Shown here: piece by piece, positions 6,563-17,892 of the stretch | Position numbering within the stretch: the stretch's first letter is position 1 | Layout of the letters: each line of letters opens with the position of its first letter | Assembly (NCBI RefSeq): GCF_005877885.1 | Contig: NZ_VCHY01000001.1 | Span: 434,001 to 498,000, forward strand | Direction of reading: 5' to 3' | DNA length: 64,000 bases | DNA from: Labilibacter sediminis | Lineage (GTDB): Bacteria > Bacteroidota > Bacteroidia > Bacteroidales > Marinilabiliaceae | The notes under the pieces: generated by a model | Seen by the model: the letters and a program-made list of their open reading frames with translations, nothing else | What the model was told of the DNA's origin: nothing | Databases searched by the model: none | Made by a program: the position numbers and the translations under genes

Positions 6563-6875
6563 GCCTTATGATAAGAACCTATAAGCCTCGTTGAAGAATC
6601 AATATTTTAGAATGCAAAGCTTAATACTCTATTTAGTCTTTTTTTATTGGTAAAAATCACATTAATAAGTCTTATGGACCGATCTTGGATGCAAAGATGC
6701 TCAAGGAACTTCACAACATGCATTTAATTTTAGAATTCCGATTCCTGTGAAAAGAAAATCCAATTAATAATCCTTACAATCAAAACCAAGCACAATCGAA
6801 AAAATGGTTAAAGATACTTTTAACACAATAGACTACTCATTAACAGTCATATATATACTAATTAAAGATAATTCC

Positions 6876-7019
6876 CTATAACAAGCCTGAGTTAATGCTT
6901 CCAATGTTGTATTTGTCGTAGAATGTATGCTTGTAGAATTCCTTTACTAAGGCCAGTTCCGGAATGTCAATTCTTTTTCGTTTTTCTACTAATATTAATA
7001 CGTTAGTGTGGTTTGTTTC
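6876..7019 (-). pseudogene. Remnant of an unidentified protein C-terminus, copy A
   Basis: The minus strand is open for 47 codons with no start codon and ends with a natural-looking stop. It contains RIDIPELALVKEFYKHTF followed by DKYNIGSINSG. A second degraded copy at 13.68-13.83 kb reads KIDIPELITFVKGFYRYTF before a stop. The nucleotide similarity extends to about 7050. I read both as fossils of the same gene 3' end; the family is unknown to me, and a transposase or recombinase is possible but not shown. Confidence 0.5.
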
Positions 7020-7383: not shown

Positions 7384-7935
7384 TTAAGAAATTTTATAAG
7401 ATGTTTGGACTATGTTGCCTTTCGCGATTAGTCGTTCATCCACAATAGCTCTGACTGACCAATAGTCAGGATTATTATCATCAACGGAACAATAGTATTT
7501 GATTAAAGAGCCAGCAAATACAGGTTCCAGAAGCTTTACCTTAATGGAAAATAAATCCGGATCTGTCGTTTTTCTATTTTTTATGTAGTCAATGGTTTCC
7601 TGACATAGTTTCTGATTAATTTGAGGTTGCAAGGCATGCCTTTTCTGCAATTCTATAATACCTTTCATTAAATCTGCCTTTTCCAATTCATGCAATACTT
7701 CTAATAGGTAACAGGCCTGCCGGAGTCCTTCCATTGTATAGATGCCCGGCCATAATTTCAAATTTGGAAAATGACCTGTAAAAGCAGATTCATTTGCAGA
7801 AACATAGCGCTCTGCCACCAAGGATAAAGGTTCGGAATCGAAGGATATAATCCTGTCGACCATAATCATTGGATGTCTTACCGGAATAAGATAAGACAGA
7901 ACATCTGATCCAATTACCATATCTGTTTTCATCAT
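7384..7935 (-). CDS. FabZ-like 3-hydroxyacyl-ACP dehydratase
   Basis: A hot-dog dehydratase of the FabZ type: the N-terminal motif LIPVRHPMIMVDRI matches the family's LLPHRxPFLLVDRI. The catalytic pair is His55 in GHFPNLKLWPG and Glu69 in MEGLRQA, at the family spacing of 14 residues. At 183 residues it is longer than FabZ (about 150), with an insert near 85-125. It would dehydrate 3-hydroxyacyl-ACP to the trans-2-enoyl form; with no enoyl reductase in the operon, double bonds would be retained, consistent with a polyene. It is the last gene of the operon, 8 bases after the ketoreductase. In the cyl comparison it corresponds to CylZ. Confidence 0.8.
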   Translation of the reverse strand: MMKTDMVIGSDVLSYLIPVRHPMIMVDRIISFDSEPLSLVAERYVSANESAFTGHFPNLKLWPGIYTMEGLRQACYLLEVLHELEKADLMKGIIELQKRHALQPQINQKLCQETIDYIKNRKTTDPDLFSIKVKLLEPVFAGSLIKYYCSVDDNNPDYWSVRAIVDERLIAKGNIVQTSYKIS

Positions 7936-7943
7936 TTTAATTA

Positions 7944-8690
7944 CTAAACGGACAATCCGCCATCAACCATAATTGATTGTCCAACAATGTAGCTTGCATC
8001 ATCAGAAGAAAGAAAAAGTACTGCTTTAACTACTTCATCCAATTCTCCCAATCTTTTTAAGGGGATTTGATTTTTCAACGCATCAATGGCACGTCTGTCC
8101 AATCGTTGAGTCATTCCACCTTTCAAACACCCGGGAACAACCGTATTAACTCTTATACCCATGGGGGCTAATTCAGCTGCCAGGGTACGGGACATAGCCT
8201 CAATTCCTCCTTTTGAGGCTGCATAGTTTACCTGACCCGGGTTAGCTTTGCTACCTGCCACTGAGCTGATATTGATTATAACTCCTGCTTTCTTCGCAAT
8301 CATCGATCTTACAACAGCACGCGTACAATGGAAGGTTCCCTCTAAATTGGTTTGGGTGACCAGGGACCAACTATTCTTTGACATCAATGCGAAAGGCTGA
8401 TCATATATTATTCCTGCATTATTTATTAGAAAATCAATGCCTCCTCGCTCTTTTATGAAAGAAGAAAAAGCATTTGCCGTTTCTTCTTCATTTTTAATGT
8501 CAGCTTTCACCAATATGGCATTACCTCCTGATTGTTCAATTTCCTTTACAGTCAGTTCTGCTTCATTCTGATTTCTGTAATATCCAATACCTACACATGC
8601 TCCCTCGGATGCAAATGCTTTTGCCATTGCCTTCCCAAGACCTCGCGAAGCACCTGTTATAATACCTGATTTATTGATAAATCGCCCCAT
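7944..8690 (-). CDS. 3-oxoacyl-ACP reductase (FabG/CylG-like SDR)
   Basis: A classical short-chain dehydrogenase: cofactor motif TGASRGLG, NNAG, catalytic Ser in NISS, and Tyr/Lys in YAASK, followed by the PG motif after the active site, as in FabG. I chose the ATG at 8690 (MGRFINKSG), two bases after the stop of the preceding gene, because it gives 248 residues, close to normal FabG length. The ATG at 8723 adds 11 residues and overlaps the upstream gene by 32 bases. It would reduce the 3-keto group of ACP-bound intermediates made by the ketosynthase in the same operon. It corresponds to CylG in the cyl comparison. Confidence 0.87.
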   Translation of the reverse strand: MGRFINKSGIITGASRGLGKAMAKAFASEGACVGIGYYRNQNEAELTVKEIEQSGGNAILVKADIKNEEETANAFSSFIKERGGIDFLINNAGIIYDQPFALMSKNSWSLVTQTNLEGTFHCTRAVVRSMIAKKAGVIINISSVAGSKANPGQVNYAASKGGIEAMSRTLAAELAPMGIRVNTVVPGCLKGGMTQRLDRRAIDALKNQIPLKRLGELDEVVKAVLFLSSDDASYIVGQSIMVDGGLSV

Positions 8691-8691
8691 T

Positions 8692-9720
8692 TTATTCTTC
8701 ATTTCTGGTGTGATAGCTATCAAGATTAAGATTTACATGAATGCTCTCGTTATTAATTACCGGGGTGGAAACAGTTTCTATTTCATAATCGTTTATCCTG
8801 AAGCACTTCAAGCCGGCATGCCAAAACGGCTTCCTGATCAACGCTTTACCTACATATTCTTTTCTCATTGGCGAATATCCGATGGAGAGCACCTGACCAA
8901 CTGCTTCATTTTCATAAAAAATCTCATCGTTTACATCCGCAGGTGTTTTTGTAGTAAAACACGTGAGTCTTCTGTTCCAGCCTTTTACTCTAAGCTTTTG
9001 CATGGCATCGTAACCCGGATACCCTGTCTTTTGTCGGGACAGTCTCCATTGCAATTGCAGTTCCGGAGGGCTTAACTTGCACTGTCCTTCCCGGTACAGG
9101 TCAAAGAAAAAATTCTCAAGAGAACACTGTGACCTGGCAGCCCGATCATTCAGTGCAAGGTCAAAAGATGCCCCAGTTTTGGTCAGAATTTCAATCCACT
9201 CTTTTTTTGATTCTGTCGGAATCATAAAATGATACCCGTATTCCCCTGTGATACCGGCCCTAAACACTATCCCTGATTTGAGTGTCATGATTGATAAATA
9301 TGGCATACCCAATATTTCCGTACCAATGGCTTTTGCACACAATTCCCACGCATATGGACCGTTTAAGCTTAAAAAACAGTTCGATTCATTTAAATCAATA
9401 ATGGAATAGTCCTTTAGAGCACCACAATACTGGTTCATCCAGTCAATGAGGTTTACAGACTCATTCCAATATCCAAGTAAATACGCATCTTCCCGGTTAC
9501 GACAAATATAAACATCTGCAAAAGGCACTGCTTCCTCATCAAGTAACAAAGTGTGTTTCATCTGACCATTCTGAAGAAAGACGTTGCAAGGGCAAATACG
9601 ATCCAGTACCTTAAATGCGTCCTTACCCCTTATCAAAAGGCACCTCAATTCAGTTTCCTCTTCGAGAGCCACAGAATTCCTGATAGCTAAATAACCTTTG
9701 TTTAATTTTTCTTCAGTCAT
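8692..9720 (-). CDS. GcvT-like aminomethyltransferase-family protein (CylF-like)
   Basis: A 342-residue member of the GcvT/YgfZ superfamily, which binds folates: LSLNGPYAWELCAKAIG matches the conserved L-x-GP-x-A segment, GITGEYGYHFMIP matches the GYTGExG(Y/F)E motif, and LSRQKTGYPGYDA resembles the C-terminal K-x-D-F-x-G-x-A region. In the glycine cleavage system GcvT transfers a methylene to tetrahydrofolate, but no gcvP, gcvH or lpd lies here. It sits between the ACP and ketoreductase genes and overlaps the ACP gene by 8 bases. A GcvT homologue inside a ketosynthase/ACP/KR/DH operon is the feature shared with CylF of the group B streptococcal granadaene operon. Its substrate is not known. 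Confidence 0.75.
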   Translation of the reverse strand: MTEEKLNKGYLAIRNSVALEEETELRCLLIRGKDAFKVLDRICPCNVFLQNGQMKHTLLLDEEAVPFADVYICRNREDAYLLGYWNESVNLIDWMNQYCGALKDYSIIDLNESNCFLSLNGPYAWELCAKAIGTEILGMPYLSIMTLKSGIVFRAGITGEYGYHFMIPTESKKEWIEILTKTGASFDLALNDRAARSQCSLENFFFDLYREGQCKLSPPELQLQWRLSRQKTGYPGYDAMQKLRVKGWNRRLTCFTTKTPADVNDEIFYENEAVGQVLSIGYSPMRKEYVGKALIRKPFWHAGLKCFRINDYEIETVSTPVINNESIHVNLNLDSYHTRNEE

Positions 9721-10003
9721 TGTCCTTTGTTTTACCTATTACCAAATCAATTGTTGAATTGACAGTCCTCAATGCCTGCCTTCCTTCTTCTTCGGAAATA
9801 CTAATGTTAAATCTGGATTCAAGTTCAACGATAAATACAACTGCATCCACTGAATCAAGTCCTAATCCGGAACCAAAAAGTGGCGTATCAGGGTCCAGAT
9901 CATTGGGTTCAATTTTCAACTGCAAGGCAGTAATAAGAATTTCTACTACACCGAGCATAATTGACTCACGTAATTCAATTTTTCTTTTCAGGTTGGTTTG
10001 CAT
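9713..10003 (-). CDS. Acyl carrier protein
   Basis: A 96-residue carrier protein. Ser51 in GLGLDSVDAV is the predicted phosphopantetheine attachment site, followed by the helix VVFIVELESRF that normally contacts partner enzymes. It is slightly longer than a stand-alone AcpP (about 78) because of an N-terminal extension. It overlaps the ketosynthase gene by 16 bases and the GcvT-like gene by 8, so translation is probably coupled. It should carry the growing chain for the ketosynthase, reductase and dehydratases of this operon, playing the part of AcpC in the cyl comparison. Confidence 0.88.
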   Translation of the reverse strand: MQTNLKRKIELRESIMLGVVEILITALQLKIEPNDLDPDTPLFGSGLGLDSVDAVVFIVELESRFNISISEEEGRQALRTVNSTIDLVIGKTKDND

Positions 10004-11775
10004 ACTTTTTTACTGTTTTCAAGTGTTTCAATGAGAGTGTAAAGACCCCGGGTGTCCGGGAAAGAAGTCGAATTTAAAGTAAGCCCTGACATTGACCACT
10101 TTGTCAGACATAAAGGTGATTCACCTTCTTGTGCTTTAAGCAATATTCCAACAGCACCAGCAGGAGTGTTTTTATTATCGTTATGAGTATCTACAGATGC
10201 GACAATCATTACATCGGCACCATCTCTCCAGGCAAGCGTGTCAGCGGCAAGACACAAAGCGGTCATTCCGTTGTCAGGTCTTTCGGCAAGCGCTGCAACC
10301 GGGCCTTTGAGGCCAAACAGTCTGCAACAGACACTGGCGGGATAGTTGACAACCAACCTTGTAAAGGCTGCCGCGGAAAGATGTTTCATGCCTCTGTCCC
10401 TGATACTGTTTTGAAGAGCCTTCAGGCTGTCTTCGGAAAGATCATCTTGCCCAACAAACAGGCCTGTATTTTCACATTCGTTTGATCTGAATTGTATTTC
10501 CGCATTGTTAAGGAGTTTTGCAACGACTCCTGCAAGAAGCTTTGCTGCCAGATCCGTATTGCGTAAATCATCAAATGGAATATGCTTGTTGATATAATCC
10601 TTGTCAAAATTAACGGCATGCCCCAGAATTGAAATTGATCGTGGAGTTTTTCTTTGAGCCTGGCATTCCATATCATTACTGCCAAATATCAATGCAGTGT
10701 TTAAACCTCCAAATGCGGAATTGGTGCATAATGCGAATCTGGTTTGATGCGGACGGGGGCAGGTTGCCGCTACCGGATCAATTGGAGAAAACGGGCGAGG
10801 CCTTGAATAATTCAAAGTGTGTGGTATAACATAATGAAGCATCGCACTAATCGTTGTTATTGCTTCCAGCACGCCGGCAGCTCCCTGTGCATGTCCTAAA
10901 AAGCTTTTACTTGAACTGACCGGTATTTGGGAGGCACGGTCTGATAACGCATTTTGAATACCTCTCCACTCAGCAGAATCATTGGCGGCAGTTCCCGTTC
11001 CATGTGCATTAATATAATCAATGTCCTGAGGTTTCAAATTACTATCTTTCAACGCCGCGGTTATCGCCTTCTGTATCCCTGATCCACTTGGATCCGGTCT
11101 CGTATCATGAAAGGCATCAGCTGCCGTTCCGTATCCCATAAATACGGCCTTAGGTACTATTCCTCTTTGTTTTGCTGAAGCTTCAGTCTCCATAACCAAA
11201 AAACCGCCACCTTCACCCAATGTAGTCCCTAGTGAATTGCTAAAAGGCGAACAGGGTGCAGTGGATAAAAGTCCCAGGCAGTGAAATCCTGCAAATACAT
11301 CGATGTTCAGAATATCTACTCCACCTGCAATCACCAGTTTGGCCTTTCCCCTCCGAAGCAGGTCGGCACCAAATCCAATTGCGTGTGATGATGAAGTACA
11401 TGCAGTAGAAACAGTGATAACCTGTCCGCCTAGCTTTAATTCATTCGCAAGGCTATAACTGACATTATTAATCTTTTTGCCCCTTACGGCATTGGATGTG
11501 CCAAGCACAAGTGTAACGGCATTGTTACCGGTTATACCGGCATCATATAATGCTTCTTTTGCAGCTATCAGGGCATAAGCTAATAATCGTTTTTCATTTG
11601 ATTCGTAATCGTCACCACCCTGAACCATACCTCCAAGTTTGGGTTTAAAGTCAACCACATCAAACCTCGTAATCGGCCTGATTCCACTTTTGCCTTGCTG
11701 TATGTTATCCCATAGTTCCTTTGTGGAACTTCCAAGGGCGCAATGTGCTCCTATTCCTGAAATTACTACTTTCAT
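9988..11775 (-). CDS. Beta-ketoacyl-ACP synthase fused to a degenerate second KS half
   Basis: Residues 1 to about 368 are a full FabF-type ketosynthase with the triad Cys126 (STACTSSSHA), His258 (NAHGTGT) and His295 (FLGHAQGA). Residues about 378-595 resemble the N-terminal half of a second ketosynthase. Aligning its GPVAALAERPDNGM with the first domain's active-site segment puts Pro499 opposite Cys126, so this half cannot form the acyl thioester and may act structurally, like a chain-length-factor half. Normal FabF is about 410 residues. It should elongate ACP-bound chains by decarboxylative condensation. It overlaps the upstream Tat-protein gene by 4 bases and the ACP gene by 16. It corresponds to CylI in the cyl comparison. 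Confidence 0.88.
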   Translation of the reverse strand: MKVVISGIGAHCALGSSTKELWDNIQQGKSGIRPITRFDVVDFKPKLGGMVQGGDDYESNEKRLLAYALIAAKEALYDAGITGNNAVTLVLGTSNAVRGKKINNVSYSLANELKLGGQVITVSTACTSSSHAIGFGADLLRRGKAKLVIAGGVDILNIDVFAGFHCLGLLSTAPCSPFSNSLGTTLGEGGGFLVMETEASAKQRGIVPKAVFMGYGTAADAFHDTRPDPSGSGIQKAITAALKDSNLKPQDIDYINAHGTGTAANDSAEWRGIQNALSDRASQIPVSSSKSFLGHAQGAAGVLEAITTISAMLHYVIPHTLNYSRPRPFSPIDPVAATCPRPHQTRFALCTNSAFGGLNTALIFGSNDMECQAQRKTPRSISILGHAVNFDKDYINKHIPFDDLRNTDLAAKLLAGVVAKLLNNAEIQFRSNECENTGLFVGQDDLSEDSLKALQNSIRDRGMKHLSAAAFTRLVVNYPASVCCRLFGLKGPVAALAERPDNGMTALCLAADTLAWRDGADVMIVASVDTHNDNKNTPAGAVGILLKAQEGESPLCLTKWSMSGLTLNSTSFPDTRGLYTLIETLENSKKVCKPT

Positions 11776-12800
11776 AAACCGGATTGCTTTTGTTTTTTAC
11801 TCGCATTTGCTATAGAACTGATGATAATAATTAATAGTGCTATAAGTATTAAAATTGGTCCAACTGTAATTCCCAAGATTGCACCAAGTAATCCTACTCC
11901 TCCCTCTATTGTACCACCTGCAATTGCAATAAACAGCCAGCCAACTGCAGTCATAATACCTCCAATACCCAATAATCTCAAACCTTTTTTTTCTGGATTT
12001 ATTTTTTTCTTTGATGGTTTGCCTACTGATGTTTCAGTTAATATCGGATTATAACCAACAGGCATATCGTGAACTTCCATATCGCTCCATTGTATGGCCG
12101 CCTTTTCTGCATCATTCTTGCTTTTTGAATAGTTTTGTTCCCCCATCTGCAACCTTAAAAGATGTTCAAGGTCCTTTTCAGAATCACACGCTGCCAGGAG
12201 TTTATCTGCTTTCCTGACATGCTCTTCAATAAACATATCCGGAGAATGTCTCAATCGCCTGATGATTCGTTTGCCCATAACTCTCATTTGTCTTCTTCGG
12301 CCCTTAGGTACTCCGACTGTTTTGGCTTCAAGGTCCAAAACTTCAAGTATGCGGTCACCCATTTCAGGATCATCTTTTAAAGCAAACATTATATCCTCCT
12401 TTGATTCCTCCGACATATTTTTCAGGATATCAAGAGAAGTTGTGACTGAATAGTTTACCTCAGGAGCAGAATATAACAAACGCTTTTGCATCCAGGGATG
12501 TACCTGACCTTTAATTGAAAGACTCCCAAAATTTCCGACTAGCAAAAGACTGCGTAAACTTGATCTGAAGAAATTCTGTTCTGTTTCGCTCGGAGTCTGA
12601 TTTATAAGGCTCTTGATATAGTCTCCTCCAGCATGTAGAATTCGATCCATACTGTTGTCCATTTCTCTTAAAAAATTCGTCATTTCTGACTGAGAAACAT
12701 CTGTACCTATTGGAACAACAATCTCGCTTAAAGCACTATTACTGGTAGCACCGGCAGCTAAAGTTACCAGGCCTGTTTTAATGAAACTTCTTCTTTTCAA
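11772..12800 (-). CDS. Tat-signal membrane protein of unknown function in the polyene-like operon
   Basis: The N-terminus MKRRSFIKTG followed by a hydrophobic alanine-rich stretch is a twin-arginine-type signal. The middle (about 35-270) is charged and mostly helical with no family I recognise. Residues about 275-335 hold two glycine-rich hydrophobic segments ending in a basic tail. The gene lies between the first dehydratase gene (86-bp gap) and the ketosynthase gene (4-base overlap), so it belongs to the operon. A role in placing or exporting the product at the membrane is a guess from position. I know no equivalent in the cyl operon. Confidence 0.65.
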   Translation of the reverse strand: MKRRSFIKTGLVTLAAGATSNSALSEIVVPIGTDVSQSEMTNFLREMDNSMDRILHAGGDYIKSLINQTPSETEQNFFRSSLRSLLLVGNFGSLSIKGQVHPWMQKRLLYSAPEVNYSVTTSLDILKNMSEESKEDIMFALKDDPEMGDRILEVLDLEAKTVGVPKGRRRQMRVMGKRIIRRLRHSPDMFIEEHVRKADKLLAACDSEKDLEHLLRLQMGEQNYSKSKNDAEKAAIQWSDMEVHDMPVGYNPILTETSVGKPSKKKINPEKKGLRLLGIGGIMTAVGWLFIAIAGGTIEGGVGLLGAILGITVGPILILIALLIIIISSIANASKKQKQSGL

Positions 12801-12886
12801 TTTGTAAAATTTAAAAAATTAGTCAAATAGATCATATGTTTTATTTGCATAACATAAACTTAAAAACAGTCATAGTCACAGAAATC

Positions 12887-13459
12887 CTAATTCTTACCAT
12901 CAGCACTAACCAAAGTTCCGTGGGCAATAATGATATTGTTTATGCATGCCCTGACTTTTGAGTAGAAAAGTGACCTAAATGTCTGGTTCAAATGAACTTC
13001 ATAGGATATTACCTGGCCCGGCCTGGCATACCCGTTAACTTCCATATCTGCCGATCCTAAAAAACCCACGTTTGAATAAGTCTGCATCAGGCGTTTATTT
13101 AAAAAGCTTTTAAGCATTATTATTGTCTCATCAGGCTCATCATCCACAAAGCCATTGAACAGTTCATCCAGTGATTTGAATCCAATGTTTGCTTTCGTCA
13201 ATTCTTTCTCTATTGCCAAAATAACGATCAAAAGATTGCAGCACTGACCCAGACCCTCCGTAATGTACATTGAGTGTAAATGATCCTCAGATTTGTTATT
13301 GCGATATAATGGATCGGTATTTTTAACAGTGTAATTCGCGCGTAAAGAAGGGTTTTTACCAAAATTAAAATAAGTAATCATGTCTACCATCAAAAATGGT
13401 GAGCGATGAGGCAACAATAACTTAATAAGTCTTTGATCATATGTGCTACATACACCCAT
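12887..13459 (-). CDS. Divergent FabZ-like hot-dog dehydratase
   Basis: The N-terminal motif LLPHRSPFLMVDMI and the central TEGLGQCCNLL (Glu68) mark a FabZ/FabA-type hot-dog protein. The usual GHFP motif is missing: the residue 14 positions before Glu68 is Asn54, and only His60 and His62 lie nearby. It may therefore be weakly active, rearranged, or an accessory partner of the canonical dehydratase at 7384-7935, since FabA-like enzymes can work as heteromers. It is the first gene of the operon. Overlapping palindromes at 13477-13497 lie just upstream of its start. Confidence 0.75.
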   Translation of the reverse strand: MGVCSTYDQRLIKLLLPHRSPFLMVDMITYFNFGKNPSLRANYTVKNTDPLYRNNKSEDHLHSMYITEGLGQCCNLLIVILAIEKELTKANIGFKSLDELFNGFVDDEPDETIIMLKSFLNKRLMQTYSNVGFLGSADMEVNGYARPGQVISYEVHLNQTFRSLFYSKVRACINNIIIAHGTLVSADGKN

Positions 13460-13497: not shown

Positions 13498-13679
13498 AAA
13501 ATGTTAATACACAAAAACTCTTATTTTCAAGAAAGTACTGTTAGCCATTACACTATTTTGGAAATATTGTATAATTTTTAATTCGAGATTTAAATTTCAG
13601 GAGTGAAACGTTTTAATACTTTCTAAATACTACAGCTACCCTAGTATCCACTATTCATACATCAGCAAAGATGAATTCT

Positions 13680-13825
13680 TGTAACGAGCCTGAGTTTATG
13701 CTTCCAATATTGTATTTATCTTTTAACCGAATGTATACCTATAGAAACCTTTAACGAATGTGATCAGTTCCGGAATATCAATTTTCTTATTACCTTTTCT
13801 TACTATATGGCGGTAGTTTGGTAAT
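13680..13825 (-). pseudogene. Remnant of the same unidentified protein, copy B
   Basis: This is homologous to the remnant at 6876-7019. On the minus strand it reads NYRHIVRKGNKKIDIPEL then FVKGFYRYTF, followed by an in-frame stop and shifted sequence corresponding to the KYNIGSINSG end of copy A. Both copies have the same orientation and bracket the polyene-like operon. Confidence 0.5.
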
Positions 13826-13889: not shown

Positions 13890-14085
13890 TCCTCACTGTC
13901 GCAACATTGCACCTGTGGCACAAATGATAATACCGTCGAAAGGATTTGTGCACTAGACAAGGGTAGTCGAAAATTTAAAAGGGTGCGTTTATGAGTTCAA
14001 TTGCCCATAAATCAAGCACCTTAAGGCAAAACACAGTAAAAATAAGTGCACCACAGGTGAGCTTGTTTAGGAGTTGACTGCATAA
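13890..14085 (+). repeat. Dispersed repeat family, full-length copy 4
   Basis: Has both halves: a proximal part with CACTGTCGCAACATTGC, CTGTGGCAC, GAAAGGATTTGTGCACTAG, and a distal part with TCAAGCACCTTAAGGC, AAAACACAGTAAAAATAAG and TGCACCACAGGTGAG, ending GAGTTGACTGC. It lies upstream of the DUF4386 gene and follows remnant copy B. The proximal hairpin is mutated here. Confidence 0.7.
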
Positions 14086-14895: not shown

Positions 14896-15091
14896 CTCTG
14901 CTGCCGCAAGATTGTATCTTGTGGCACTCAAATAATAAAACCACCGAAAGGATTTGTACAGTAGCCAAGCGAGTCAGAAATTTAAAGGGTGTGCTTAAGA
15001 GTCCAATGGCGCATAAAACAAGCACCTAAAGGTAAAACATAGCAAAAACAATTGCACCACAGGTGGGATTATTAATGAGTTATAGCTAATG
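14896..15091 (+). repeat. Dispersed repeat family, full-length copy 5
   Basis: The best-preserved copy: hairpin GCCGCAAGAT(TGT)ATCTTGTGGC, then CCACCGAAAGGATTTGTAC, CAGTAGCCAAGC, a GTGTGCTTAAGAG block, AACAAGCACCTAAAGG, TTGCACCACAGGTGGG and the end GAGTTATAGC. It lies between the DUF4386 gene and the Crp/Fnr gene. Confidence 0.75.
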
Positions 15092-17673: not shown

Positions 17674-17692
17674 CCACAAACCGCATAGCTCC

Positions 17693-17892
17693 CCCACTGC
17701 CTCAACATTATTTCTTGTGACACTCCAATAACAAAACCATACGAAAAGATTTGTGCACTAGCCAAGGGTCGTCGGAAAATTTTAAGGATGTGCTTACAAA
17801 TTTAATTGTGCACAAAACAAGCAGCCTAAGGCAAAACATTGTAAAATAAGTTCAGGGCAGGTGGGGTTATTTATGAGTTGTAAGCAATTTTC
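17693..17892 (+). repeat. Dispersed repeat family, full-length copy 6
   Basis: Same order of blocks as the copies at 13890 and 14896: CTCAACATTATTTCTTGTGAC, CGAAAAGATTTGTGCACTAG, GATGTGCTTAC, ACAAGCAGCCTAAGGC, GGCAGGTGGGGTT and GAGTTGTAAGC. It lies between the serine hydrolase gene and the minus-strand lipoprotein gene. Confidence 0.7.

Follow-up and report, generated by a model that had tools for sequence, protein, structure and literature searches.

A compact Labilibacter sediminis operon likely to encode a minimal polyene-type polyketide synthase with GcvT-like and exported helical partners

A 64,000-nucleotide stretch of the Labilibacter sediminis genome (contig NZ_VCHY01000001.1, positions 434,001 to 498,000; hereafter the window) contains a compact operon of seven minus-strand open reading frames (ORFs) at window positions 7384-13459. 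In our view this operon is likely to specify a highly reducing type II polyketide synthase (PKS) of minimal make-up that makes a conjugated polyene; a dedicated GcvT-like protein and an exported helical protein may serve as its partners. An earlier note on this DNA had proposed a cyl/granadaene-like operon. The iterative enzyme core that this proposal invoked is present, but the operon is closest to a set of Gram-negative loci, not to the cyl operons of Gram-positive bacteria. The operon is cyl-like in function and is not a cyl operon.

The operon encodes a probable highly reducing type II polyketide synthase core

According to the available text of PMC10698177, highly reducing type II PKSs with a ketosynthase (KS)–chain length factor (CLF) pair, a ketoreductase (KR), and a dehydratase (DH) make polyenes. 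Pfam and NCBIfam profile scans of the seven proteins, together with alignments and a structure model, identified an active-site KS paired with a Cys-less CLF, a KR, a DH, and an acyl carrier protein (ACP), without an enoyl reductase (ER) (Table 1). Because KS-CLF, ACP, KR, and FabZ-like DH are present and the operon lacks an ER, its sequence points to a polyene as the likely product – probably a multiply unsaturated, perhaps coloured, lipid. The operon thus resembles the polyene subgroup of highly reducing type II PKSs, as far as that source describes it, in its KS-CLF, KR, DH, and ACP and in its lack of an ER. It differs in having KS and CLF on one chain, a CLF of only ~220 residues, and GcvT-like and Tat-signal helical partners.

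All seven genes of the earlier note were recovered as compact minus-strand ORFs, in the order (from position 13459 downwards) hotdog1, Tat-signal protein, KS, ACP, GcvT-like protein, KR, and hotdog2. Gene junctions consist of overlaps of 4, 16, and 8 bases and gaps of 1, 8, and 86 bases when the KR is read from the ATG at 8690; starting it from the TTG at 8723 gives a 32-base overlap with the GcvT-like gene. We regard the operon as more than a chance arrangement because the same seven-gene order recurs in two other loci, and because KS, ACP, GcvT-like, and KR genes occur together across phyla.

Table 1. Genes of the operon, with positions in the window
Protein	Position	Strand	Features
hotdog1 (P0001)	12887..13459	-	FabZ-like, without the GHFP His
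Tat-signal protein (P0002)	11772..12800	-	TTG start; helical domain, C-terminal hydrophobic hairpin; orphan family
Fused KS-CLF (P0003), 595 aa	9988..11775	-	KS 1-365; shortened CLF 376-595
Acyl carrier protein (P0004)	9713..10003	-	GLDSV site
GcvT-like protein (P0005)	8692..9720	-	Asp69 retained; His164 in place of pterin-site Glu
Ketoreductase (P0006)	7944..8690	-	FabG type, YxxxK; alternative TTG start at 8723
hotdog2 (P0007)	7384..7935	-	FabZ-like dehydratase, GHFP + Glu

The ACP matched the PP-binding family (7e-11), and the genome encodes one ACPS-family protein scoring above cut-off. The KR matched a 3-oxoacyl-ACP reductase model (3.2e-79, 266 bits, under the model cut-off of 297.75). 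As the earlier note had stated, no ER was found: NCBIfam called none of the seven operon proteins an ER, and the Pfam model adh_short_C2 bears an ER name but is a general short-chain dehydrogenase/reductase (SDR) model. Of the two dehydratase-like proteins claimed previously, hotdog2 keeps GHFP and the Glu and matched a FabA domain (2.4e-10). Hotdog1 is weakly FabZ-like (2.1e-8 in NCBIfam), had no Pfam match at E<=1, and has lost the catalytic His of GHFP. Because only the Glu is kept, we favour a role for hotdog1 as partner subunit over one as second dehydratase.

In the mechanism we propose, the fused KS-CLF would extend an ACP-bound chain with malonyl units, malonyl-ACP presumably being supplied by a house-keeping malonyltransferase. 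The FabG-type KR and FabZ-type DH would convert each new keto group to a double bond and, with no ER in the operon, a conjugated polyene would be left on the ACP, its length set by the shortened CLF. Instead of being a folate C1-transfer enzyme of the usual kind, the GcvT-like protein might serve the ACP-bound chain as a dedicated partner. The helical protein, exported and anchored in the membrane, might help with moving the product in the envelope or with keeping it there.

The ketosynthase is fused to a shortened chain length factor

The KS assignment of the earlier note was borne out (Pfam ketoacyl-synt 2.4e-32, Ketoacyl-synt_C 8.5e-35), with the correction that a shortened CLF follows the KS on the same chain. 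Cys126, His258, Lys290, and His295, the catalytic residues, are all conserved in the KS part of P0003, and residues 376-595 align with the N-terminal half of a further KS-fold domain that lacks the Cys. Searched alone, this CLF part gave a weak match to the N-terminal halves of FabF proteins (best E 0.0025). An AlphaFold2 (AF2) model of the whole chain was well predicted (pLDDT 88.5, pTM 0.93), and a Foldseek search with it matched the PfaC KS-CLF (6riw; 13th by E-value, TMq 0.76) across the whole chain (740 columns), while the ishigamide KS/CLF (6kxd) ranked 48th and matched the KS part. By its sequence and predicted structure, then, P0003 is a KS fused to a shortened, Cys-less CLF. The short CLF has a precedent, since an aryl-polyene CLF of 211 residues from a working system is on record in the available part of PMC12664062.

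We built a KS tree of 49 rows, drawing on 17 of 21 window-type and 14 of 46 second-type loci (both defined below) plus the window; its rows included no ApeO, aryl-polyene, or flexirubin KS. The window KS falls in a window-type clade (18 rows, support 100/99) nested within a clade of fused KS-CLFs (38 rows, 99/96) that also includes enteric, Priestia, Lachnospira, Pseudalkalibacillus, Streptomyces, and L. plantarum cyl rows. The genome's own FabF, E. coli FabF, NodE, and an aromatic KS lie outside this clade. The earlier view that the KS is distinct from house-keeping FabF is upheld, and a house-keeping FabF identity is excluded by this tree.

Fused KS-CLFs were also seen in clusters from Streptomyces, Lachnospira eligens, and Pseudalkalibacillus plasmids (L101, L106, L029, L031 in our numbering of loci), whose listed genes include no GcvT.

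The GcvT-like protein lacks the pterin-site glutamate

P0005 matched Pfam GCV_T (6.5e-25) and scored 52.7 bits against the curated GcvT equivalog TIGR00528, below its cut-off of 235.85. Trees were built from 18 of the 21 window-type and 15 of the 46 second-type loci plus the window, with the over-long frames of L047 and L048 excluded; mis-extracted pieces of 40-49 aa (L006, L015, L021) were removed for the trees and residue table and are still in the CylF-profile scan. The unrooted tree without YgfZ (46 rows) resolves three groups. Ordinary GcvT proteins and the oxidases form the first (9 rows, 100/99), CylF joins Priestia in the second (3 rows, 98/94), and the third is a Gram-negative PKS-linked family (34 rows, 98/97). 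An ordinary GcvT or folate oxidase identity for P0005 is set aside by this separation. With YgfZ included (47 rows), YgfZ falls on the Gram-negative family side (97/89) on a branch of 3.9, and CylF on the ordinary GcvT side; a single clade of all PKS-linked rows is not the best tree, though it is not rejected (p 0.095). Of the two groupings that the earlier note had named as counter-evidence, true GcvT is therefore apart from P0005 but YgfZ is not clearly so.

We compared sites in a residue table of 49 rows (20 of the 21 window-type loci, 15 of the 46 second-type loci, and the window). At the catalytic Asp site, aligned to the position that differs between 1pj5 and 3gsi and that we take to be D552, three of the 39 PKS-linked rows have Glu and the remaining 36 keep Asp. 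A Glu at what is presumably the pterin site of the GcvT fold is present in 10/10 other rows vs 1/39 PKS-linked rows. Seven residues before this site, 32 of the 36 Gram-negative PKS-linked rows have Lys, and the nine ordinary rows and all three CylF-group rows have Tyr or Phe. P0005 thus shares with the folate domain of GcvT and dimethylglycine oxidase its fold family, as judged by profile, and the Asp equivalent, and differs in lacking the pterin-site Glu and in its separate tree group.

The earlier note had likened P0005 to CylF. The pterin-site Glu is lost in both, but the two fall in separate tree groups, and a CylF profile scored P0005 (92.7 bits) little above the best ordinary GcvT (90.0), with the best enteric row at 122.5. 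P0005 thus resembles CylF in its gene neighborhood and in having lost the same residue, and is a possible rather than an established orthologue. A search of a plasmid collection with L. plantarum CylF returned seven records – itself, Lactococcus, four Priestia, and one Enterobacter – and no ordinary GcvT; where inspected (L026, L028, L030, L109), these records adjoin such clusters. The fused KS-CLF clusters without a GcvT gene (L029, L031) count against an essential role for the GcvT-like protein.

A GcvT-like frame also occurs in 9-10 kb records named Listeria phage (OR848257, OR846906, OR848259, OR846907), which are perhaps bacterial DNA.

A predicted exported helical protein family travels with the operon

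Profile scans of P0002 found only a twin-arginine translocation (Tat) signal, under cut-off (0.008), and TatC is encoded in the genome. Conserved in an alignment of the family are the N-terminal RR, the C-terminal hydrophobic hairpin and, within the helical part, HP and several Arg. The AF2 model is helical (pLDDT 72.6), with the start and residues 260-309 poorly predicted, and a Foldseek search of the PDB found nothing at E<=0.001 (best 0.87). The family was present in 18 of the 21 window-type loci and in none of the 46 second-type loci. P0002 thus appears to represent a family of exported helical proteins, without a match in function or fold, that travels with polyene machinery.

Related loci occur in other Gram-negative bacteria

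One pattern scan of genome contigs gave 86 matches, from which 67 loci were confirmed; more distant carriers would be missed because the two patterns were built from four sequences. The loci comprise 21 of the window type (L032-L051 and L094; Bacteroidia, Myxococcota, Fibrobacterota, Gemmatimonadota) and a second type with 46 members, most of them from Enterobacterales, Pseudomonas, and Paraburkholderia; L079 was put in the second type but groups with the window type. Counting neighbors within 7 kb on the same strand – several window-type loci being cut by contig ends – we found KS in 19, ACP in 20, KR in 18, and FabZ-like proteins in 13 of the window-type loci, together with malonyltransferase (11), beta-propeller (10), and ferritin-like (6) proteins. 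The second-type loci gave KS, ACP, and KR in 45 each, FabZ-like proteins in 44, and malonyltransferase in 5. The genes are therefore held together in other carriers rather than scattered, as the earlier note had anticipated. The exact seven-gene order is repeated in a Bacteroidia metagenome-assembled genome (L032) and in L033, at 54-76% identity per protein, and these two are the only window-type loci with hotdog1.

Of 61 relatives, counting its own genome, only the latter gave the window KS at E<=1e-60. In a phylum sample, 3 of 395 genomes matched at 1e-50; besides its own, these had KSs 410 and 419 aa long (40 and 43% identity), both placed among FabF rows. Searches for P0005 at 1e-25 over 393 genomes of the order and 395 of the class each yielded its own genome alone; at 1e-10, 18 of 61 relatives matched at 21-27% identity (query aside), the level of ordinary GcvT.

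Enterobacterial clusters (L025, L027, L028, and most of L052-L098) resemble the window in keeping KR, DH, ACP, GcvT-like protein, and fused KS-CLF together, and share its GPY(A/S)WE, P-x-E-L-Q, and C-terminal motifs. They differ in having a full-length CLF, no Tat protein, and the order KR-DH-ACP-GcvT-KS; where second-type clusters were annotated or scanned, a further KS-like protein and ABC, FtsX-type permease, and LolA-like genes were present as well.

We found no description of these Gram-negative loci among the literature matches listed, subscription journals being largely outside the scope of that search, and a term search of PMC10132072 was likewise negative. The chain-building enzyme set is little described and is found in other Gram-negative bacteria too. 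Cyl-like polyene machinery is here extended to Bacteroidota, Myxococcota, Fibrobacterota, Gemmatimonadota, and many Gammaproteobacteria. We tentatively suggest, at a little under an even chance, that these loci form a widespread and as yet unnamed class of Gram-negative highly reducing type II PKSs whose KS and CLF are fused, and in which a GcvT-fold protein without its pterin anchor is a dedicated partner of the ACP-bound polyene. If so, CylF-like proteins would show the GcvT fold newly employed in polyketide assembly, and the window type would be linked to an orphan exported helical protein.

Several further features of these loci were observed. The L033 contig, with the whole operon at 54-75% identity per protein, is titled Candidatus Nealsonbacteria and is perhaps a misbinned Bacteroidota contig. 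A ferritin-like or desaturase-like protein lies beside the operon in L038, L039, L041, L046, L049, and L051, with a ferredoxin domain in L049; an oxidative tailoring step is possible. The enterobacterial clusters L025, L027, and L028 adjoin filamentous-haemagglutinin/two-partner secretion (TPS) genes, and L025 and L028 also ShlB/FhaC-like genes. One 4-Mb P. mirabilis 'plasmid' record is chromosome-sized.

Alternative functions

Several observations weigh against a polyene PKS. We know of no product from any of these loci, and a house-keeping ER could act on the chain. The window operon lacks a malonyltransferase, vs 11 of the 21 window-type relatives with one, and its CLF, shorter than in most other loci, may be impaired. 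The branch of the L. plantarum cyl KS is very long (2.39), and it clusters with enteric rows (94/95) instead of the window's. Finally, the top Foldseek matches of P0003 by E-value are FabFs (TMq ~0.58), and its best NCBIfam KS scores, all below cut-off, are to FabF models.

The NCBIfam FabF scores, and the fact that KS, KR, DH, and ACP also make up a fatty-acid set, would suit a dedicated fatty-acid or lipid-modifying set in which a house-keeping ER removes the double bonds, so that an envelope lipid would receive an acyl group that is saturated, hydroxylated, or short. The KS-CLF fusion and the tree position with polyene-type systems make this unlikely.

We think it very unlikely that the operon is a stripped-down cyl operon, acquired from a Gram-positive granadaene producer with only the lipid core and CylF retained. 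The functional core is common to both: like the operon described here, the cyl/granadaene operon (the available text of PMC6985545; Lactococcus allomyrinae, L109; L. plantarum, L030) keeps KS/CLF, ACP, KR, DH, and a GcvT-family gene together, and CylF and P0005 have both lost the pterin-site Glu. However, the window genes nest among Gram-negative loci of the same order in KS and GcvT trees and in neighborhoods, P0005 is no more than a possible CylF orthologue, and the operon has another gene order, with the Tat protein and hotdog1 in place of CylE, an ABC exporter, and a glycosyltransferase. The absence of cyl accessory genes reported in the earlier note was corroborated, with no CylE, ABC-family (CylA exporter), or glycosyltransferase match among the seven operon proteins. 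The cited text places the acyltransferase CylE, and CylF, in all cyl operons, which it reports from Firmicutes, Actinobacteria, and the chloroflexus Thermosporothrix. A CylE profile run over the window and loci L025-L098 matched only the L. plantarum control (L030), although a remote CylE could be missed because the profile comprises two sequences; a search of the L. sediminis genome, run without a control, found none, and none is annotated in the Priestia cluster. A hidden CylE among nine enterobacterial cluster families and the Tat family was rejected, with no hhalign match.

The role proposed for CylF in the available text of PMC6985545 is to supply ammonia for ornithine. The GcvT-like genes in 67 Gram-negative loci without CylE, together with the lack of an annotated CylE in Priestia, speak against an ornithine-tied role; under the tentative class-wide reading given above, ornithine supply would not be the general function of the GcvT-like partner, because it persists without CylE. 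The seven-gene system makes the partner's role testable without CylE.

Also very unlikely is an atypical pigment operon of the aryl-polyene or flexirubin kind. Aryl-polyene systems also have KS-CLF, KR, DH, and a short CLF (available part of PMC12664062), and the flexirubin SDR model FlxB gives the KR 221 bits, but this is below the cut-off of 340, no aryl-starter enzyme was found among the seven proteins by Pfam or NCBIfam, and a KS-family profile scored 6qsp_A, which we take to be an aryl-polyene KS, at 234 bits, compared with 384 bits for 9s5h_B and 323 bits for 6kxd, the ishigamide KS.

Composition and repeats around the operon

The GC content at third codon positions (GC3) of the operon is 0.35, compared with a mean of 0.28 (standard deviation 0.076, maximum 0.40) in the 22 other window ORFs; as this is within their range, there is no clear composition signal of recent transfer. 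No Rfam match was found in operon-flanking sequence, promoter- and terminator-like sites in the flanks were no commoner than in shuffles, and a defense system was rejected, PADLOC matching none of the seven proteins.

A degenerate direct repeat lies just outside both operon ends (6864-6991 and 13667-13805; 73% over 139 columns), with only these two copies in the genome at E<=1e-5, and may mark how the operon arrived. A separate intergenic repeat of ~180 nt, not attC-like by folding (fold z -0.37), occurs at 13896-14078, 14901-15081, and 17692-17880, with a weak piece at 1618-1663 and one copy 4.7 kb before the window. At E<=1e-5 it is found at four places in the genome, all within 23 kb and on one strand.

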